In this document: piece by piece, positions 1-10,999 of the stretch | How positions within the stretch are numbered: position 1 is the first letter of the stretch | Layout of the letters: every line of letters starts with the position of its first letter | Source of the DNA: Desulfobacteraceae bacterium | Lineage (GTDB): Bacteria > Desulfobacterota > Desulfobacteria > Desulfobacterales > UBA11574 | Assembly: GCA_030671225.1 (NCBI GenBank) | Contig: DAOVAE010000016.1 | Location: 1 to 10,999 of the forward strand | DNA: 10,999 nt | Reading direction: 5' to 3' | Notes under the pieces: model-generated | The model's input: only the letters and a program-made list of their open reading frames with translations | Told to the model about the DNA's origin: nothing | The model's database searches: none | Made by a program: the position numbers and the translations under genes

Positions 1-300
1 AAAGGCCCGAGTGCCATTGCTTTAAGCTATGAAGATCCGATTGCACCGGCAAAGGTCTTAACAAAGTTTGCTAACGAGCATGACAAGCTTGAAATTAAAA
101 CCGGTGTTTTGGAAGGTAAAGTGCTCGATATAAACGCCATCAAGGCTATGTCGATCCTGCCTTCCCGTGAGGTGCTTTTAGGACAATTCCTCTCAGCCGT
201 CAATGGTGTTCCTACGAAATTTGTACGAGTTTTAAACGCTGTACCGGTGCAGTTTTTAAATGTACTTCAGGCCGTCAAGGAACAGAAAGAAGCTGCATGA
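1..300 (+). CDS. rplJ: 50S ribosomal protein L10, C-terminal part (5' end outside window)
   Basis: Frame 1 is open from the first base to the TGA at 298-300 and encodes the last 99 residues of L10. L10 anchors dimers of L7/L12 to the large subunit and so forms the base of the stalk that recruits translational GTPases. The visible part begins KGPSAIALSYEDP, matching the L10 segment G-(T/S)-A-(I/L)-A-(L/F), and runs through LPSREVLLGQ. It ends in the long C-terminal helix (VPVQFLNVLQAVKEQKEA) that binds L7/L12 in this family. The gene continues upstream of the window, so the start codon cannot be judged; an internal ATG at 109 is in frame but is not the real start. rplL follows after 79 bp, the usual rplJL order. 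In E. coli, L10 with L7/L12 represses its own mRNA upstream of rplJ; that site would lie outside this window. Confidence 0.95.
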   Translation, partial: KGPSAIALSYEDPIAPAKVLTKFANEHDKLEIKTGVLEGKVLDINAIKAMSILPSREVLLGQFLSAVNGVPTKFVRVLNAVPVQFLNVLQAVKEQKEAA

Positions 301-379
301 GGTTCGACAAAAAGAGACGTTTTTCAAAGGTCTCAAAGATATAGACATTAATTGAAAGTTAATATGGAGGAAAAATAAA

Positions 380-763
380 ATGGCGGATGTTACCAAAGAA
401 GATGTAATTGAGTTTATAGCAAGCATGTCGGTGCTTGAACTTTCCGAGCTTGTTAAGGAAATGGAAGAAAAATTCGGTGTTTCAGCTGCTGCGCCGGTTA
501 CTTTAGCTTCTGCAGCACCTGCCGGGGCCGGAGAAGCTCAAGTGGAAGAAAAGACCGAATTTGACGTTGTTCTGACAACTTTTGGAGACAAGAAAATCCA
601 GGTGATCAAGGAAGTCAGGGCGATTACCGGTCTGGGTCTCAAGGATGCGAAGACATTGGTCGATGAAGTTCCAAAGCCGGTAAAGGAAGGAATTCCTAAA
701 GATGAGGCTGAAAAGATTAAGAACCAGCTTGAAGAGGCAGGCGCTCAGGTTGAAATAAAGTAA
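380..763 (+). CDS. rplL: 50S ribosomal protein L7/L12
   Basis: This 127-residue protein is the full usual length for L7/L12, the multicopy stalk protein that contacts EF-Tu, EF-G, IF2 and release factors and stimulates their GTPase activity. The N-terminal dimerisation and L10-binding domain spans roughly residues 1-34 ([20 protein letters not shown]). An Ala/Pro/Gly-rich flexible hinge covers about 35-55. The C-terminal factor-binding domain starts near [10 protein letters not shown] and contains the conserved KIQVIKEVR and TGLGLKDAK segments, ending GAQVEIK. The ATG at 380 is supported by a strong GGAGG at 366-370, nine bases upstream. The gene lies between rplJ and rpoB as expected. In E. 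coli the rplL-rpoB spacer carries an attenuator that sets ribosomal protein versus polymerase output; the 139-bp spacer here could do something similar but has an unusual repeat structure. Confidence 0.98.
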
Positions 764-773
764 TATATAATTA

Positions 774-879
774 GGAAATAGGTAATGGGTCATAGGGCAA
801 AAGGTGGTGTGCTTAGTATTTCAATACCGGCCATATAATACACATGTTCTTATAACCTATAACCTATAACCCCATAACC
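774..879. repeat. Inverted clusters of a 7-bp repeat in the rplL-rpoB spacer
   Basis: The right cluster holds three exact tandem copies of TATAACC at 851-857, 858-864 and 865-871, followed by a degenerate copy ending CCATAACC at 872-879. The left cluster, 774-796, reads as degenerate tandem copies of the reverse complement (GGAAATA, GGTAATG, GGTCATA, then GG). The two clusters could pair: 781-796 against 863-879 is complementary at about 15 of 17 positions with one bulge, leaving a loop of about 66 bases. A small inverted repeat, GTATT-TC-AATAC, lies inside that loop. The block occupies most of the spacer between the rplL stop and the rpoB ribosome binding site (GGAG at 894-897). It could act as an RNA structure that tunes rpoB expression, or it could be a genome-wide repeat. 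No run of T follows it, so it is not an obvious intrinsic terminator. Confidence 0.6.
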
Positions 880-902
880 AAATTTAATATATTGGAGATG
901 CC

Positions 903-3900
903 ATGTCGGCAAGGATTTTGACAAATAAGCGTATAAGGAAAAACTTCGGCAAGATTCAAAAGATAGTTGATATTCCTGATCTTATAGCAGTGCAACGGGA
1001 ATCATACGGCCGATTTTTGCAAATGGACGTTCCTCCGGAAAAACGTAAAGATATCGGCCTGCAGGCCGTTTTTAAGTCCGTATTTCCGATAAAGGATTTT
1101 ACCGGAAGTGCATCTCTTGAATTTGTATCTTACAGATTCGCCGAGGTTAAGCACGGCATTCAGGAGTGCATACACAGGGGAATGACCTATGAGATTCCGA
1201 TCCGAATCACTGTCAGGCTTGTGGTATACGATATTGATAAGGATACAGGAGTTACGAACATCCGTGATATCAAGGAGCAGGAAATCTACTTCGGCACAAT
1301 TCCTTTAATGACAGATAATGGAACTTTTATCATTAATGGAACCGAACGTGTTGTAGTAAGCCAACTCCATAGATCTTCCGGCGTATTTTTCGATCATGAC
1401 AAAGGGAAGACACATTCCAGCGGCAAGGTTATCTATACTTCCAGGATTATACCGGTACGCGGGTCGTGGATCGATATGGAGGTCGATCACAAAGATATCG
1501 TTAATATTCGGATCGACAGGAGGCGTAAATTTCCTGTTACGATCCTTTTTAAAGCTTTTGGCTATACTTCCGAAGATATCCTGGCCTATTTTTATCAGAC
1601 AGAAAAAATTGTTATCCATAAAAAGCGGATATTCAAGAAGTTTGATGAAGAGTTGCTGAGAGGGCAGCGTGCCAGCCTGGATATCAATGATCCTAAAACA
1701 GGCGAAAATATAATTTTGAAAGGGCGTGTGTTCACTAAAACGGCGATCAAGCGGATGAAATCCGCAAATGTAGAATTGATTCCTTTAAATGTTGAAGATA
1801 TTCTCGATATGGTTTTCGCAAATACAATAGTTGATCCCGGCAATGGAGAGACTATAGTAAAATGCAACCAAATATTTACTGAAGAAGTTTTTCAATCCTT
1901 GCTTGATGCCGGTATAGATAAATTTGAACTGCTTGTCATCGATGGTGCAACCAGCAGTGACTCCATCCACAAAACCCTGCTTTTGGATAAGGTCGAAAAA
2001 AAAGAGGAAGCACTTATTGAGATATATCGAAGACTCAGACCAGGTAATCCCTCAACACCGGAAGTGGCTCAGGATTTTATTGACCACATGTTTTTCAAGT
2101 CCTCCTATTACGATCTTTCCGGTGTGGGTCGAATGAAGATTAACCTTCGCCTTGATATTAACTCCTCCATCGACCTTAAAGCTCTAAGAAAAGAGGATAT
2201 ACTCCTTGCAGCCAAAACCCTGGTAAGATTAAAAGATACCCAGGGAGCTGTTGATGACATCGATCATCTTGGGAATCGACGGGTACGTGCGGTCGGTGAA
2301 CTTTTAGAGAACCAGTATCGTATCGGACTTGTCCGCATGGAACGGGCTATTAAAGAACGGATGAGCCTTCAAGAGGTCGATGCGCTTATGCCGCACGACT
2401 TGGCCAACCCCAAACCGGTTTCAGCTGTGGTTAGAGAATTCTTCGGGACCAGCCAGCTCAGCCAATTCATGGATCAGACCAACCCGCTTTCAGAAACGAC
2501 CCATAAACGGCGTCTGAGCGCCCTGGGTCCGGGTGGATTAACTCGTGAAAGAGCCGGCTTTGAGGTAAGGGATGTGCATCCGTCACATTACGGGCGGATC
2601 TGTCCCATAGAGACGCCGGAAGGGCCCAACATAGGTCTTATTGTTTCCCTTAGCACTTATGCCAGGGTTAATGAATATGGATTCATTGAAACGCCGTACA
2701 GTGTTGTAAAAGATGCCACTGTATTGCAGGATGTTCGTTTTATCAGTGCCTTTGAAGAAAAGGAGCACCCGATCGCCCAGGCTAACGCACTTGTTGACGA
2801 AAACAGAAAATATGTCAATCCCCTTGTAACATCACGAGTAAAAGGGGAGTTCATGATGATCAAGGCCGAAGATATAGAACTGATGGATATTTCTCCCAAC
2901 CAACTGGTGAGTGTATCCGCATCCCTGATACCGTTTTTAGAAAATGATGATGCCAACAGAGCGTTGATGGGATCGAACATGCAACGCCAGGCGGTCCCCC
3001 TGATTGTAAACAAAGCGCCTCTGGTGGGTACAGGTGTTGAGGGAGTGGTAGCCAAGGATTCAGGCGTTACGGTTGTTGCAAAGTATGATGGCACAGTGGT
3101 GGACGTGGATGCTTCCCGTATTGTTCTGAAGCATGAACCTCAAAACGGCGATGATGGTTCCGAAATACCGGTTAAGATATACAACCTTTCAAAATTCATA
3201 CGGAGTAATCAGAATACATGTTTCAATCAACGTCCGATTGTAAGAAAAGGACAAAAGGTCAAAGCAGGAGAGGTCATAGCAGACGGTCCTGCAACAGAAC
3301 ACGGCGAACTTGCTCTGGGCAAAAATATAACGGTGGCATTCATGCCATGGGGTGGTTATAATTTTGAGGATTCGATTCTGGTGGGCGAGAGACTTCACCG
3401 GGAGGGCGTGTATACATCCATCCACATTGAAGAGTTTGAAGTAGTGGCCAGAGATACCAAGCTGGGCAGAGAAGAAATCACGCGAGACATTCCGAATGTT
3501 GGCGATGAAGCCTTAAAGGATCTGGATGAAAGCGGTATTATAAGGCTTGGCGCTGAAGTCGGACCGGGAGACATTCTGGCAGGCAAGGTAACGCCTAAGG
3601 GTGAAACACAGCTTTCTCCTGAAGAAAAGCTTCTGCGTGCCATATTCGGTGAAAAAGCAGGAGATGTAAAAGATAGTTCTTCACGGGTACCTCCTGGTGT
3701 ACAAGGGATTGTGATCGATGCAAAAGTATTTTCAAGACGGGGTATTGAGAAGGATAATCGCAGCAGGTTGATCGAAGAAGAGGAGATCGCTGAACTTAAA
3801 AAAGAAAGAGATGATAAGCTTGCAGTCATTAATGATGTGGTTCGCACGGAGCTGGAAAAATTGCTTGTGGGTCAGAAATGTTTCACAACCCTGAAAAAAG

Positions 3901-5003
3901 GCAAGAAGGTTCTGATTTCTAAAGGGAGCGAAATAGCTCCAGAGATGCTGGCCGAGATTCCCGTGGCTCAGCTTGAGGGGATTGTACTTAAAAGTCCTAA
4001 ATTGACCGAACAGATCCATAATATTCTTGAGCGATACAGGGCTCAATGCGAGCGTTGCAGAAAGTCTTTTGAACAGAATGTAAGCCGTTACGAGAAAGGC
4101 GATGACCTTCCTCCTGGAGTAATCAGAATGGTTAAAGTCTATGTAGCCATGAAGCGTAAGCTGTCCGTTGGTGACAAGATGGCCGGCCGCCACGGTAACA
4201 AGGGCGTTGTATCGAGAATTCTTCCCCAGGAAGACCTCCCTTATTTTGAGGACGGGACACCGGTTGATATGGTCCTGAATCCTCTGGGAGTCCCATCCAG
4301 GATGAATGTGGGACAGGTTCTGGAAATTCATTTGGGTTGGGCTGCAAAAGGTCTTGGCGATCAGATTAACAGGCTTTTGGAAGAAAGAAAAAGTAAGGCC
4401 CTTCGACAGAAACTTAAGCGGATATTCTCTGATACGTCTGCCACGGAGATGATCGACGGCTTGGAAGATGAAGGTTTGTTTGAATTTGCAAGCAATTATA
4501 AAGATGGTGTTCACATGTCCACACCGGTTTTTGATGGTGCCAAAGAGGATGAGATAAAAGATCTTCTCGCTGAGGCAGGGCTTTCAACAACCGCTCAGAC
4601 TAACTTGTTCGACGGGCGTACCGGAGAGCCTTTTAAAGAAAAGATCACCGTTGGTACTATGTATGTGCTGAAACTTCATCACCTTGTTGACGACAAGATC
4701 CATGCACGCTCTATTGGTCCATATTCGCTCGTGACCCAGCAACCGCTTGGCGGCAAAGCACAATTCGGCGGTCAGCGTCTTGGTGAAATGGAGGTCTGGG
4801 CCATGGAGGCTTATGGAGCGGCGAATGCTCTACAAGAGTTTTTAACAGTTAAGTCGGATGACATGGCAGGAAGGACTCGTATGTATGAAAAGATCGTAAA
4901 AGGTCAGAATACTCTCGATCCGGGCCTGCCTGAATCTTTCAAGGTTTTGACCAAGGAATTGAAGAGTCTAGGTTTAAATATAACCCTTATGGAAGGAACA
5001 TAA
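903..5003 (+). CDS. rpoB: DNA-directed RNA polymerase subunit beta
   Basis: This 1366-residue protein is the beta subunit of RNA polymerase (E. coli 1342), which with beta' forms the active-site cleft. The rifampicin pocket at about 515-541 reads [13 protein letters not shown] then [19 protein letters not shown]. The main resistance positions are wild type (Q521, D524, H534, R537, S539, equal to E. coli 513, 516, 526, 529, 531), so rifampicin sensitivity is predicted. The acidic pair in NFEDS is E822/D823. The active-site lysines in [12 protein letters not shown] are K1092 and K1100 (E. coli 1065 and 1073). Both large proteobacterial insertions appear present: SI1 roughly 230-350 and SI2 roughly 945-1070. 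SI2 here contains a CxxC pair (C1049, C1052). The C-terminus carries [18 protein letters not shown], the beta' contact region. The ATG at 903 follows GGAG at 894-897, and the N-terminus ([16 protein letters not shown]) fits the family. The stop is directly followed by rpoC. Confidence 0.99.
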
Positions 5004-8000
5004 ATGGAAACTTTATACGATTTCTTCACCAAACCAACTGATCCAAGGCTTTATACAAGTGTTAGGATTGCCCTGGCATCACACGAGCAGATTTTAGAAT
5101 GGTCAAATGGGGAGATTAAGAAACCGGAGACAATTAATTATAGGACTTTTAAGCCCGAGCGTGACGGTCTTTTCTGTGCCAAGATTTTCGGCCCCACAAA
5201 AGACTACGAGTGCAACTGCGGAAAATATAAGCGGATGAAACACAGGGGCGTTATTTGTGAAAAATGTGGTGTGGAAGTTATTCAATCCAAGGTCCGAAGG
5301 GAGCGAATGGCGCACATAGAACTCGCTACACCTTGTTCTCATATATGGTTTTTGAGAAGCCTCCCGAGCAAGATCGGCAATCTTCTTGATCTGACGCTAA
5401 AAAGTCTGGATAAAGTGATTTACTTTGACAGTTATATTGTTATCGACCCCAAAGATACGGATCTTAACCGCCATCAGCTTCTATCGGAAGAAAAATATCG
5501 AGAGGCACGTGAAATCTACGGGAACAAATTCGAAGCGGGAATAGGGGCCGAAGCTGTTAAGATACTGCTGGAGAATCTCGATCTCGATGTAATAAATAAT
5601 GAACTGAGAGTTGATATTAATACCACCGGTTCTTTGGCAAAACGGCAAAAGCTCTCCAAACGGCTAAAAATTATCGATGCATTCAGGCGTTCGGGAGTAG
5701 AACCGACCTGGATGATCATGGATGTTATTCCGGTTCTTCCGCCGGATTTACGGCCGCTTGTCCCTCTTGAGGGTGGGAGATTTGCAACATCTGACCTAAA
5801 CGACCTCTATCGAAGGGTCATTAATCGCAATAATAGGTTAAAACGACTTATAGATTTAAAGGCTCCTGACATTATTGTTCGGAATGAGAAAAGGATGCTT
5901 CAGGAATCGGTGGATGTTCTTTTCGACAACGGTCGTCACGGCAGAGCGATTATGGGAACTAACAAACGGCCGTTAAAATCGCTGAGTGATACCTTGAAAG
6001 GCAAGCAGGGACGTTTCCGGCAGAATCTTTTAGGGAAAAGGGTCGATTATTCTGGCCGTACCGTTATCACCATAGGGCCGGACCTCAGGTTACATCAGTG
6101 TGGCCTGCCAAAAAAGATGGCCCTGGAGATGTTCAAACCGTTTATTTATTATCGTCTCGAACAAAAAGGGATCGTGTCAACGGTAAAGAGTGCCAAGAAG
6201 ATGGTGGAACGGGGAGTTCCGGAGGTCTGGGATACTTTAGATGAGGTGGTAAAGGAGTATCCGGTTCTTTTGAACCGCGCCCCCACTCTTCATCGGCTGG
6301 GGATTCAGGCGTTTGAGCCGATTCTCATTGAAGGAAAGGCTCTGCAGCTTCACCCGCTGGTCTGTACGGCATTTAATGCAGACTTCGACGGTGATCAGAT
6401 GGCTGTTCATATACCCCTTTCAGTGGAGGCTCAGATAGAGGCCAGGATATTGATGTTGTCCAGCAACAACATACTTTCTCCGGCGAATGGGAGCCCGATA
6501 ATTGTGCCGAGTCAGGATATTGTTCTCGGTATATATTACATGACAAGAGGGGTTACCGGATCCAAAGGCGAAGGGAAAATATTTGCAAATCCCGAAGAGG
6601 TTCGATGTGCATATGATGACAAAGCCGTTGATCTTCACGCCAAGATTATCGTTCGAATGAACGGAGAAAGGTTTAATACAACCGTTGGGCGCATACTGCT
6701 TTGGGAAATTATTCCCAAGGGTAACATAATGATGATGAGTCATATCAAAGTTTTTGATGAAGATGAGGCGGGGACCGTTCTAGGAAAGCTTAAGGCCGGT
6801 GAGGATTTTACTGAAATGGTGGTCCAATATTCCAAAGGTCTTGATAGGGATAATAAAGGGCTCATCGGTCTATTCAGAAATGACGAGTTCAAGCGGATAT
6901 TCACTACTTCGGATGAAGATACTGAAAAAGTCTTTGCTCTGGAAGAAGGAGAGATAAGCGACGTTATTTTTGCAGATGAAGCCCATCATATTTTTCAAGT
7001 GATTAAGAAACGGTCGGAGATACCTTTTTCTACAGTCAACAATGTCAGGGATAAAAAGACGCTTAGCGAGCTTGTAAATTATGCCTACAGAAATCTGGGG
7101 CCAAAGGCTACGGTTATCCTTTCCGACAGATTGAAAGACATCGGTTACCAATACTCAACCCAAGGCGGGCTTTCTATTTCTATTGACGCCATGATCATAC
7201 CGTCTGCCAAATCGGATATTTTGAAAAAGGCCGAAAAGCAGGTCGATAAAATCGGCAGTCAATACGTAGAGGGTCTTATCACACAGGGTGAAAAATATAA
7301 CAAAGTTGTTGATATATGGGCAAAAGCGACTGACGATGTGGCCGATGAGATGATGAAAGCAATGAGGATGGCTACTGTAGCCGACACTGAAGGCAACCCT
7401 GTTCTTGATGAGGACGGGAAGCCTGTTATTGAAGAAAGTTTTAACCCCATTTACATGATGGCAGATTCCGGGGCCAGAGGCAGCAAGGATCAGATGCGTC
7501 AGCTTGCAGGGATGCGAGGACTTATGGCGAAACCGTCTGGTGAAATCATCGAAACACCAATTAGCGCTAATTTCAGGGAAGGCCTTTCCGTACTTCAATA
7601 TTTCATTTCGACTCACGGCGCCAGAAAGGGCCTTGCAGATACGGCCTTAAAGACCGCCAACTCGGGATATCTTACCCGGCGGCTTGCCGATGTTGGCCAG
7701 GACTGTATTATCTCCGAAGATGACTGCGGAACTATGCTGGGTGTTGAGGTTGAATCTCTGATGGAAGGCGGTGAAGTGATTCAGCGTCTTGAGGAACGTA
7801 TTTTAGGGCGTGTTGCCATGGAGGATATCAATGATCCGTTTACTGAAGAGGTGATTGTCAAGGCCGGTGAAGATCTGGATGAAGAAGCCGTAAAGATCGT
7901 TGAAAATGCAGGAGTTGCCAGAGTGAAAATCAGGTCGGTTCTGACATGCAAGAGCAAGCATGGTGTGTGTGCCAAGTGCTATGGCCGGGACCTTTCCCAC

Positions 8001-9401
8001 GGAGCAAAAGTCGAAATTGGTCAGGCGGTCGGAATTCTTGCGGCTCAGTCAATCGGTGAGCCCGGAACCCAGTTGACTATGCGTACATTCCACATTGGAG
8101 GAACGGCCAGCCGAAGGGTTGAGCAGGCCGACATCAGATCCCGGGCCGAAGGTAAGGTTAAATTTCTTAATCTTAATGTTGTGGAAAAAGATGGAAATAT
8201 ATTTGTAGTTATGAGCCGGCGGGGGGGTGAAATAGCCATAGTTAGTGATACCGGACGCGAAAGAGAAAGGTTCCCTGTCATTTACGGAGCCCACATTGAG
8301 GTAAAAGACGGTGATCAAGTTAAGGTCGGAGATCTTCTGGCAACCTGGGATCCCTTTACAACGCCAATTATTTCAGAAGTTGACGGGACCGTTAAATTTG
8401 GTGATGTTATATCCGGGAAGACCATGCAGGAGAAGGTCGACCCTGTTACAGGCAAATCCAGTCGTACAATCATCGAATCCAAAAGCGGTGAGGAACGTCC
8501 AAGGATTTCAATCAAGGGCAGAGATGGAAAAACAGTCAAGCTGCCGGGATCATCGGAGATGGCGCGATATTTACTACCGATAAATGCTATTTTGCTTGTT
8601 GAAGAAGGAGATGATGTTAAAGCTGGTGATGTGATTACAAAGCTCCCCAGAGCAACGACCAAGACAAAGGATATTACCGGCGGTCTTCCAAGGGTGGCCG
8701 AACTCTTTGAGGTTAGAAAACCCAAAGAAACCGCAGTTTTGAGTGAAATAGACGGGTATGTTTCGATAGCCAAGGCCACGAAAAAAGGTAAACAGAAAGT
8801 TATTATTACGCCTGTAGATGTTGGTGAAAAGAAGGAATATCTGATTTCACACGGTAAACATATAAACGTTTTTGAAGGTGATTATGTCAGAGCAGGCGAG
8901 GCACTGATAAGCGGTTCGGCTATTCCTCAAGACATATTGAATATCAAAGGTGAGATTGCATTAGCACGCTATCTTGTTGATGAAGTCCAGGAGGTTTACC
9001 GCTTACAAGGAGTCCGGATAAATGATAAGCATATAGAGGTTATTGTACGGCAAATGATGCGGTGTGTTAAAGTTATTGATGCTGGTGATACCGATTTTAT
9101 TATTGAAGATCAGGTTGACAGAAAGATATTTGAAAAAATTAACCGGGCAGTAATTGAGGAAGGAAAGAAGCCCGCTGTTGCTGACCACCTTATACTGGGG
9201 ATTACCAAGGCATCACTTTCCACTGAAAGCTTTATATCTGCCGCTTCATTCCAGGAGACGACCAAGGTCCTTACTAATGCCAGCATTGCTGCCAAAGAAG
9301 ACAACCTTCAGGGGCTTAAAGAGAACGTTATTATGGGAAGAATCATTCCTGCGGGGACCGGCCTTTATAAATACAGAGATGTTGAGGTTTCAGCCGGTTA
9401 A
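5004..9401 (+). CDS. rpoC: DNA-directed RNA polymerase subunit beta' with a parvulin-like domain insertion
   Basis: This 1465-residue beta' subunit (E. coli 1407) carries the catalytic Mg-binding NADFDGD motif, with D460, D462 and D464 at the same numbers as in E. coli. The N-terminal zinc ribbon uses C70, C72, C85 and C88. The second zinc site uses C908, C982, C989 and C992, a uniform +94 offset from E. coli 814, 888, 895 and 898. The bridge helix is near 863-898. The trigger-loop start [10 protein letters not shown] contains M1026, R1027 and H1030, followed by an SI3-type insertion (about 1040-1225) and [15 protein letters not shown]. Most of the offset comes from an extra block of about 98 residues at 575-672 resembling a parvulin isomerase, annotated separately. 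The C-terminus ends soon after [13 protein letters not shown] and lacks the long tail of E. coli. The ATG directly abuts the rpoB TAA, with AAGGA at 4993-4997 inside rpoB, so translational coupling is likely. Confidence 0.99.
6726..7019 (+). other. Parvulin/PpiC-like domain inserted in frame within RpoC (residues about 575-672)
   Basis: The beta' sequence is colinear with E. coli up to [15 protein letters not shown] (E. coli TTVGRAILWMIVPKG, ending near residue 586). It resumes at IPFSTVN (E. coli LPYSIVN). Between them is a block that reads as a rotamase of the parvulin family. It has an opening SHIKV (S579, H580), then an [19 protein letters not shown] helix segment (588-610). A KGLIGLF glycine segment follows at 618-624, then [13 protein letters not shown] at 644-656, and finally the closing [10 protein letters not shown] at 661-670. 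This is the element order of PpiC, SurA and Pin1, including the paired active-site histidines (H580 and H662). The Asp or Cys that normally follows the YS motif appears to be G612. By position it falls in the pore domain (Rpb1 domain 3), beside the secondary channel. The fold assignment is by eye from remembered family sequences. The domain borders are good to a few residues. Confidence 0.82.
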
Positions 9402-9410
9402 GACTTGTTT

Positions 9411-9563
9411 TAAATAGTGCCTGAACGAAAACTGTCTTTTTCGCCAATATCTGTGTCAGACTCAAATTTTAATCCTCGAAATACTCAATGTATTCCTGTG
9501 GTTAAAATTTTCGTCTTCCTTGATCTTAACAAAAAATCCTAGTTTTCGTTCGGGCACTAAATA
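9411..9563. mobile_element. MITE-like palindromic element with TAAATA direct repeats
   Basis: Identical TAAATA hexamers at 9411-9416 and 9558-9563 flank a 141-bp segment (9417-9557). The segment's ends are 17-bp inverted repeats (GTGCCTGAACGAAAACT against AGTTTTCGTTCGGGCAC, 16 of 17 matching). Inside are further inverted pairs: AGAC 9458-9461 with GTCT 9513-9516, AAATTTTAA 9464-9472 with TTAAAATTT 9502-9510, and AATAC 9480-9484 with GTATT 9490-9494. All of these share one centre at base 9487, so the whole element is one long imperfect palindrome with a 5-base loop. Terminal inverted repeats plus flanking direct repeats, with no coding capacity, are the hallmarks of a miniature inverted-repeat transposable element. 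It sits ten bases after the rpoC stop. Transcribed, it would fold into a long hairpin and might protect the rpoC 3' end or reduce read-through into rpsL. No transposase is present in the window to identify its family. Confidence 0.72.
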
Positions 9564-9667
9564 ATGGATTATTTGTAACATTTCAGCTTTTTGAAAATAT
9601 TTCCGCTCGTTTGAAATCGATTTGTTTCAAAGAACTAAACTATTACGATTATTTCTATATAAAACGC

Positions 9668-9694
9668 TTGACAATCTGAGGATACATGTCTAAT
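9668..9694 (+). promoter_or_regulatory. Likely sigma70-type promoter for rpsL-rpsG-tuf
   Basis: A perfect -35 hexamer TTGACA at 9668-9673 is followed by TCTAAT at 9689-9694 (5 of 6 to TATAAT). The spacing of 15 bp is shorter than the usual 17. It lies in AT-rich DNA about 57 bases upstream of the rpsL start and downstream of the palindromic element. The region 9564-9667 between the element and this promoter is AT-rich and shows no gene; it contains a small inverted repeat TTTGAAA 9610-9616 / TTTCAAA 9625-9631. A promoter here would let the str-type genes be transcribed independently of rpoBC. Confidence 0.5.
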
Positions 9695-9751
9695 AGTTAA
9701 CATTTTGTCGATACAGCCTAATTATGAATATAAAAGGATTCAGGGGAGAAA

Positions 9752-10123
9752 ATGCCGACCATTAATCAGTTAGTAAGAAAGGGAAGGAAGCGAATAAAGA
9801 AAAAGACAAATACTCCGGCACTGAAGGGTGCTCCTCAGAAAAGAGGAGTCTGTACACGCGTTTATACTTCAACACCCAAGAAGCCTAATTCTGCCTTGCG
9901 GAAAGTTGCCAGAGTCAGACTGACCAACGGTATAGAAGTTACAGCATATATCCCCGGCATAGGGCATAATCTCCAGGAACATTCGGTTGTTCTTGTTCGT
10001 GGTGGACGTATTAAGGATCTGCCTGGTGTAAGGTACCATATTGTCAGAGGCACTCTTGATACACTTGGCGTCGAGGATCGAAAACAGGGCAGATCAAAAT
10101 ACGGCTCCAAGAAGCCCAGGTAG
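9752..10123 (+). CDS. rpsL: 30S ribosomal protein S12
   Basis: This 123-residue protein matches the normal S12 length. S12 sits at the subunit interface and helps monitor codon-anticodon pairing in the decoding centre. The protein starts [12 protein letters not shown] and has the conserved [22 protein letters not shown] loop and the [20 protein letters not shown] segment. K43 and K88, whose changes give streptomycin resistance in E. coli, are both wild type. D89 is the residue methylthiolated by RimO in other bacteria. The C-terminus is [10 protein letters not shown], as usual. A strong ribosome binding site, AGGGGAG at 9742-9748, precedes the ATG. It is the first gene after the 350-bp non-coding region that follows rpoC, and rpsG follows after 99 bp. 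Confidence 0.99.
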
Positions 10124-10219
10124 AAAAATGGTACAAAATACATGATGTAATATGCACCGTGCCTGAATCTTGTGGCATGAAAATGGATAACAAATAGCAA
10201 CGAGATATTAATGGTGTAA

Positions 10220-10693
<474 letters not shown>

Positions 10694-10731
10694 ACTTTAT
10701 TGTGAACTCGCTCTAAAGGGAGGACAAAAAG

Positions 10732-10999
10732 ATGGGGAAGGAAAAGTTTGAGAGGACCAAGCCGCATGTAAATGTGGGTACGATAGGTCATATAGATCAT
10801 GGCAAGACGACCTTGACGGCGGCGATAACCAAGCACATGGGGATGAAGGGCATGGCTCAGTTTGTTCCTTTTGACCAGATAGACAAAGCCCCGGAAGAGA
10901 AAGAGCGTGGTATCACCATAGCGACGGCGCACGTTGAGTATGAGACTTTGAATCGTCATTATGCTCATGTTGATTGTCCGGGTCATGCCGATTACATCA
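10732..10999 (+). CDS. tuf: Elongation factor Tu, N-terminal part (3' end outside window)
   Basis: The first 89 codons of EF-Tu are present, and the frame is open to the window end. EF-Tu is the GTPase that delivers aminoacyl-tRNA to the ribosomal A site. The protein starts [20 protein letters not shown]. The P-loop GHIDHGKT is at 19-26, the switch I segment RGITI at 59-63 and the G3 motif DCPGH at 81-85. The DHG form of the P-loop and the [15 protein letters not shown] start are typical of EF-Tu rather than EF-G or IF2. An excellent ribosome binding site, AAAGGGAGG at 10715-10723, precedes the ATG. The gene follows rpsG by 38 bp, with no fusA between them. Third-codon positions are somewhat richer in G/C (about 55% by hand count) than in the start of rpsG (about 40%), and ACG, GCG and AUA codons are frequent. 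This may reflect high expression or a second gene copy elsewhere. Confidence 0.98.

Follow-up and report, generated by a model that had tools for sequence, protein, structure and literature searches.

Insertions confined to particular lineages are a familiar feature of the beta' subunit of RNA polymerase. The accessible part of one survey (PMC11515920) places them at seven locations and names HABAS, BEAN and sLC among the inserted domains, and E. coli itself carries beta'i6 (PMC2939025, likewise available in part). Parvulin domains (PF00639, PF13616), on the other hand, are known from foldases such as PrsA, PpiD and SurA. The subject of this study is a parvulin-type domain within the rpoC gene of a Desulfobacteraceae bacterium, located in a stretch of 10,999 nucleotides (contig DAOVAE010000016.1 of assembly GCA_030671225.1, positions 1 to 10,999 of the forward strand; hereafter the window). 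Like the beta' insertions named above, as far as the available text of those sources describes them, it is in frame, lies within a conserved core and is limited to a lineage, so that its general kind is known; the domain type is other than the HABAS, BEAN and sLC named in that text and appears to be new. The words parvulin, rotamase and isomerase are absent from the survey, and a parvulin is not mentioned in the part of PMC13114784 that was available. No discussion of a beta' parvulin domain was found in the literature searched, which mostly comprised sources other than subscription journals, and an earlier mention is possible; databases already flag the domain automatically through precomputed Pfam annotation. 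The arrangement looks like an undescribed way to outfit a universal enzyme.

The gene occupies 5004..9401 of the + strand as a single uninterrupted frame of 1465 residues, identified as an intact beta' subunit from its match to the curated model TIGR02386 (1759 bits) and its alignment with E. coli K-12 rpoC. About 100 residues are added at a site that is closed in E. coli K-12: the offset relative to E. coli beta' passes from -13 at P584 (window P571) to +86 at G586 (window E672). A profile comparison with the E. coli beta' chains of the PDB likewise breaks off at residue 586. The parvulin-fold insert comprises residues 572-671 (6717..7016, + strand), at E. coli positions 585-587, in frame inside an otherwise intact and conserved beta' core. 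The original prediction, made from the letters of the window, had placed it at 6726-7019, which stands to within a few residues; its claims of an unbroken frame and of a constant +94 offset downstream were both borne out, the latter at the zinc and trigger-loop residues C814, C888, C895, C898, M932 and H936. Pfam Rpb1_3 matches two stretches of the chain, and the proposed location in the pore domain (Rpb1 domain 3) is supported because the better of these (489-574) runs up to the insert. By a rough count, PMC11515920 numbering other species, the site falls near the bD4/uD3 border, and the nearest location listed in the accessible text of that survey is 'the middle of bD4'. An assembly error or chimera was rejected, since the insert is found at the same site in many separately assembled genomes.

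The identity of the insert is supported by sequence as well as by predicted structure. Excised from the chain, it scores 34.6 bits against Pfam Rotamase PF00639 (cut-off 21.7, E 4e-8) and 30.1 bits against Rotamase_3 PF13616 (cut-off 22.5), and PF00639 also passes in the full-length beta' (28.7 bits); of the three rotamase profiles suggested at the outset only Rotamase_2 PF13145 remained below its cut-off, with 23.1 bits against 27. The top sequence match in the PDB is PrsA (6vj4), with an E-value of 1.1e-5 that improves to 1.1e-10 using a 63-row profile, and individual PF00639 matches at E <= 0.01 were obtained for 57 of the 63 rows of the insert alignment. The insert is predicted to adopt a parvulin fold, in line with the domain proposed in the original prediction, and the matches listed for this fold are, to judge from their titles or families, parvulin-domain proteins; HABAS and BEAN do not occur among these listed matches, an absence that proves nothing. 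In the models, the termini of the insert fall on the first and last parvulin strands, and the surrounding beta' core is predicted to retain its usual fold. The domain shares its fold, the order of its secondary structure elements, a hydrophobic pocket and, in most copies, a pair of histidines with the parvulin domains of PrsA, PpiD and SurA; it differs from them in being housed in a polymerase subunit rather than a foldase, and in not keeping the Cys/Asp position of the active site. A viral origin was dropped, as no match to the insert at E <= 0.001 was found in a viral structure library, although such an absence is no proof of a non-viral origin, and an antiphage role was likewise set aside following the lack of a PADLOC match for the insert, itself a weak test.

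Conservation was counted over 111 non-redundant representatives of 209 unique insert segments. Both parvulin active-site histidines are present in the window protein, His580 (codon 6741..6743, + strand) and His662 (6987..6989, + strand), which from the alignment we take to be the counterparts of His59 and His157 of Pin1. They are found in 93 and 94 of the inserts, respectively, and together in 87. The pocket positions 621, 629 and 633 are hydrophobic in 97/111, and F664 is kept in 108/111. Conversely, the position of Cys113 in Pin1 and Asp154 in B. subtilis PrsA is taken by Gly612 in the window (6837..6839, + strand), and Cys or Asp was found there in a mere 3/111 inserts. Isomerase activity is unreadable from these residues in either direction, because in B. 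subtilis PrsA the D154A change removes no more than half of the activity and Pin1 H59L/H157L is surprisingly active (PMC2678132, in the part available).

Comparison with 20 free-standing parvulin domains of the same order reveals features particular to the inserts. Glu628 and Phe629 (6885..6890, + strand; E in 103/111, F in 101/111) belong to an RpoC-specific signature around residues 625-631, while the free-standing domains have Met at 629 in 18/20 and are variable at 628; neither E628 nor F664 is conserved among them, and the insert has six extra residues at 635-640. These 20 domains are hits from a homolog search, not all from genomes known to carry the insert; L219 and L220 look identical, and 17 of the 20 lie in frames of 632-680 residues, which by their length are presumably PpiD-like. 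Gly stands at the Cys/Asp position in 19/20 of these free-standing domains (L211-L230), so that the missing Cys or Asp does not set the insert apart, and the parvulins of this order may be atypical as a set in this respect. No donor could be singled out, as identity reached at most 31% to the 20 free-standing parvulins and 33% to B. subtilis PrsA.

A class-wide search of 389 genomes with a 310-residue probe, in which the genomes listed (all but 25 of the 389) belong to the order of the window, gave a match in 344; the 45 genomes without one were omitted from the carrier count. From the best matches listed per genome, read together with a re-inspection of 30 ambiguous or comparator genomes, about 330 of the 344 carry the insert. 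It is absent from 11 (G044, G113, G256, G286, G041, G028, G198, G271, G310, G345 and G070), and three (G270, G333 and G380) are undecidable since their contigs end there; some of the counted carriers (e.g. G200 and G300) show a partial insert at contig ends. Identity of the carriers to the window insert with its flanks ranges down to 28%. The named carriers include Desulfatitalea alkaliphila M08but, an assembly of Desulfonema limicola, Eth-SRB1, Eth-SRB2 and Olavius symbionts, and names such as D. alkaliphila identify the carrier order as Desulfobacterales. Of the 201 genomes in the class that are near-complete and low in contamination, 12 gave no match to the RpoC segment (e.g. G236 and G093), which probably reflects missing contigs or a limited initial search rather than absence of rpoC.

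The genome-by-genome search covered the phylum of the window, from which 296 genomes at least 90% complete were drawn, 13 of them in the order (that of the window included) and 283 outside it. None of the 274 outsiders with a match (9/283 had none) gave one spanning the insert. The best E-values of the outsiders were no better than 5.6e-42, compared with 1e-84 or better for most carriers; in the outsider rows listed the match is split at the insert, and for the remainder the lack of a spanning match was judged from the best E-value, bearing in mind that an insert of very high divergence would give the same split appearance. In all seven outsiders whose sequences were retrieved, the site consists of two residues. 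At the protein level, all 120 listed of 134 hits bear RNA polymerase domains, as do the seven proteins found with the divergent member L078. In combination with the tree described below, these searches support the predicted lineage-specific insertion, seen in one order only and with the site empty in the outsiders sampled from the phylum. The insert is also a handy marker for most Desulfobacterales.

The tree was computed from 114 selected beta' cores with the insert removed (96 from carriers, 11 from members of the order that lack it and 7 from outsiders). Two insert-free families, f61 with four chains and f6 with one, branch before the clade that contains all carriers, with support of 0.976, 0.984 and 1.0 at successive nodes. 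Five insert-free chains of f19/f22 are nested with carriers in a clade of 15 (support 0.996; 0.46 for their own grouping), and G070 groups with two carriers of its own genus (support 1.0). Support is weak at many inner nodes and lacking for the branching of the outgroup itself (0.114); distribution and topology together support a single in-frame insertion in an ancestor of most Desulfobacterales, and one gain with at least two losses is the simplest reading. In G070 the loss was in frame and left a short scar, with a few residues of both insert ends, near 24075/24076 (locus L196, G070:C14). This genome is 97% complete and its genus mates carry the insert, making it a natural deletion experiment, and the losses within the order, one of them within a genus, provide matched pairs for comparison.

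The surroundings of the insert in the chain bear on what it may do. In E. coli, DksA residues near the tip of its coiled coil lie 6-10 A from K598/K599, which start a helix reaching K615 in ppGpp site 1, a site that also includes I619 and D622; DksA has been proposed to act on this site via the K598-K615 helix, and N680 forms part of ppGpp site 2, which lies at the rim helices (PMC7676912, in the part accessible). The insert ends 12 residues before the K598 equivalent. Lys684-Lys685 (7053..7058, + strand) correspond to K598/K599 and are Lys in 96/96 and 70/96 carriers, respectively; Lys701, Ile705 and Asp708 (7104..7127, + strand) correspond to K615, I619 and D622 of ppGpp site 1 and are kept in 96, 87 and 96 of 96; Glu763, Asn766 and Lys767 (7290..7304, + strand) correspond to E677, N680 and K681 and are each kept in 96/96, and the equivalent of R362 in 95/96. 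A role at the secondary channel with DksA or Gre, raised as one option in the original prediction, accordingly appears better grounded than before, because the insert lies so shortly upstream of the K598 equivalent and the DksA tip contact. An independent, if weak, hint comes by analogy from E. coli DksA, for which a prolyl isomerase activity about 1000-fold below that of FklB is reported in the available part of PMC7461557: here too prolyl isomerisation is tied to a secondary-channel protein, albeit one structurally not known in the three isomerase families.

The reading we favour, with a probability of roughly 0.39, is that the domain, inserted once into the pore-domain region and folding as a parvulin with the polymerase core unchanged around it, would serve as an accessory module of chaperone-like character that binds peptides and tunes regulation at the secondary channel. 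Binding is preferred to obligate isomerase action because the hydrophobic pocket persists and most copies retain both histidines, while the Cys/Asp position is not conserved. The insert might grip a proline-containing segment of a secondary-channel factor (DksA, Gre) or of the polymerase, which would shift the K598/K599-K615/D622 helix and thereby tune the action of DksA, Gre and ppGpp; this last step is suggested by the position of the insert just upstream of the helix joining the DksA-tip contact to ppGpp site 1. Nearness to the secondary channel in three dimensions, partner, binding and regulatory effect are all things we infer. A stronger version, in which the insert is a working proline switch in cis that isomerises or grips a proline segment at the channel and so controls DksA/ppGpp or Gre responses, is improbable in our estimate; if true, a cis prolyl isomerase in the polymerase would constitute a new mode of transcription control. 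With a folding-enzyme domain located so shortly before that helix, it becomes testable whether the wiring of the stringent response, or the assembly of the polymerase, can be retuned by giving the enzyme an extra domain of its own.

A number of observations weigh against the accessory-module reading. The proximity is one in sequence; K685 (= K599) is non-Lys in 26/96 carriers and Lys in 11/11 non-carriers; and R417, a residue of ppGpp site 1, is mostly replaced by Lys throughout the group, whether or not the insert is present. DksA is present in 24/24 sampled genomes (16 carriers, 8 non-carriers), and its co-occurrence was rejected as support, carriers and non-carriers being alike. Eleven of the 111 inserts have neither histidine, copies in some lineages are eroded (by eye L062, L064, L066, L067 and L080), and the insert has disappeared from f19/f22 and from G070 while the rest of rpoC stayed intact; the domain is dispensable there, at least two lineages having lost it. 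Finally, in 45 close pairs, which share branches and hence are not independent, insert dN/dS exceeds that of beta' residues 20-470 in 45/45 and that of residues 780-1400 in 39/45. These losses, with the short scar in G070, the eroded copies, the scattered active-site residues and the evolution faster than the N-terminal core in every pair are what one would expect of a neutral or nearly neutral decoration, a domain that happened to enter a loop tolerant of insertions, is able to fold independently, has no specific task and has stayed because it is seldom excised precisely and in frame. We nevertheless regard this explanation, the most serious rival, as somewhat unlikely: insert dN/dS is below 1 in 45/45 pairs (0.09-0.30 in 39), so that the insert is constrained, if less than most of the core, and retention in about 330/344 matched genomes despite identities down to 28%, as well as the RpoC-specific conservation of E628 and F664, point the same way.

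That the domain instead helps beta' itself, by chaperoning or isomerising it in cis or by easing assembly with omega and beta much as PrsA and SurA serve exported proteins, is less likely still. Its nearest relatives are foldase parvulins, the histidine pair is kept in 87/111, and polymerase subunits may be isomerase clients, given that RpoB, RpoC and RpoA are among the proteins reported to aggregate when E. coli is deprived of six cytoplasmic isomerases, and that purification of PpiB, itself an isomerase, also recovers beta and beta' (PMC7353009, in its accessible part); the insert-free lineages inside and outside the order, however, have an otherwise normal beta'. The retention of the pocket hydrophobics without the Cys/Asp position and the RpoC-specific signature would also suit a docking role, in which the parvulin groove is a mere adaptor for some lineage-specific factor with no relation to DksA or Gre. 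We give this explanation little weight; no candidate partner came to light, although none was looked for.

Elsewhere in the window the gene order is rplL-rpoB-rpoC-rpsL-rpsG, the names being read from translations of the open reading frames with rpoC as the one tested against a profile, and the rpoB stop directly abuts the rpoC start with zero gap (5003/5004). By alignment, the counterpart of the trigger-loop insertion of E. coli, which we take to be SI3, comprises residues ~1034-1226 of the window's beta'. Length variation also occurs at other points of the subunit in relatives: L133, L181 and L186 have 49-52 extra residues near window residue 526, in a variable region that precedes the parvulin insert, and the carrier L094 (G100:C153) has a further beta' insertion of ~143 residues near window residue 793 (84+34+25 extra in the alignment).
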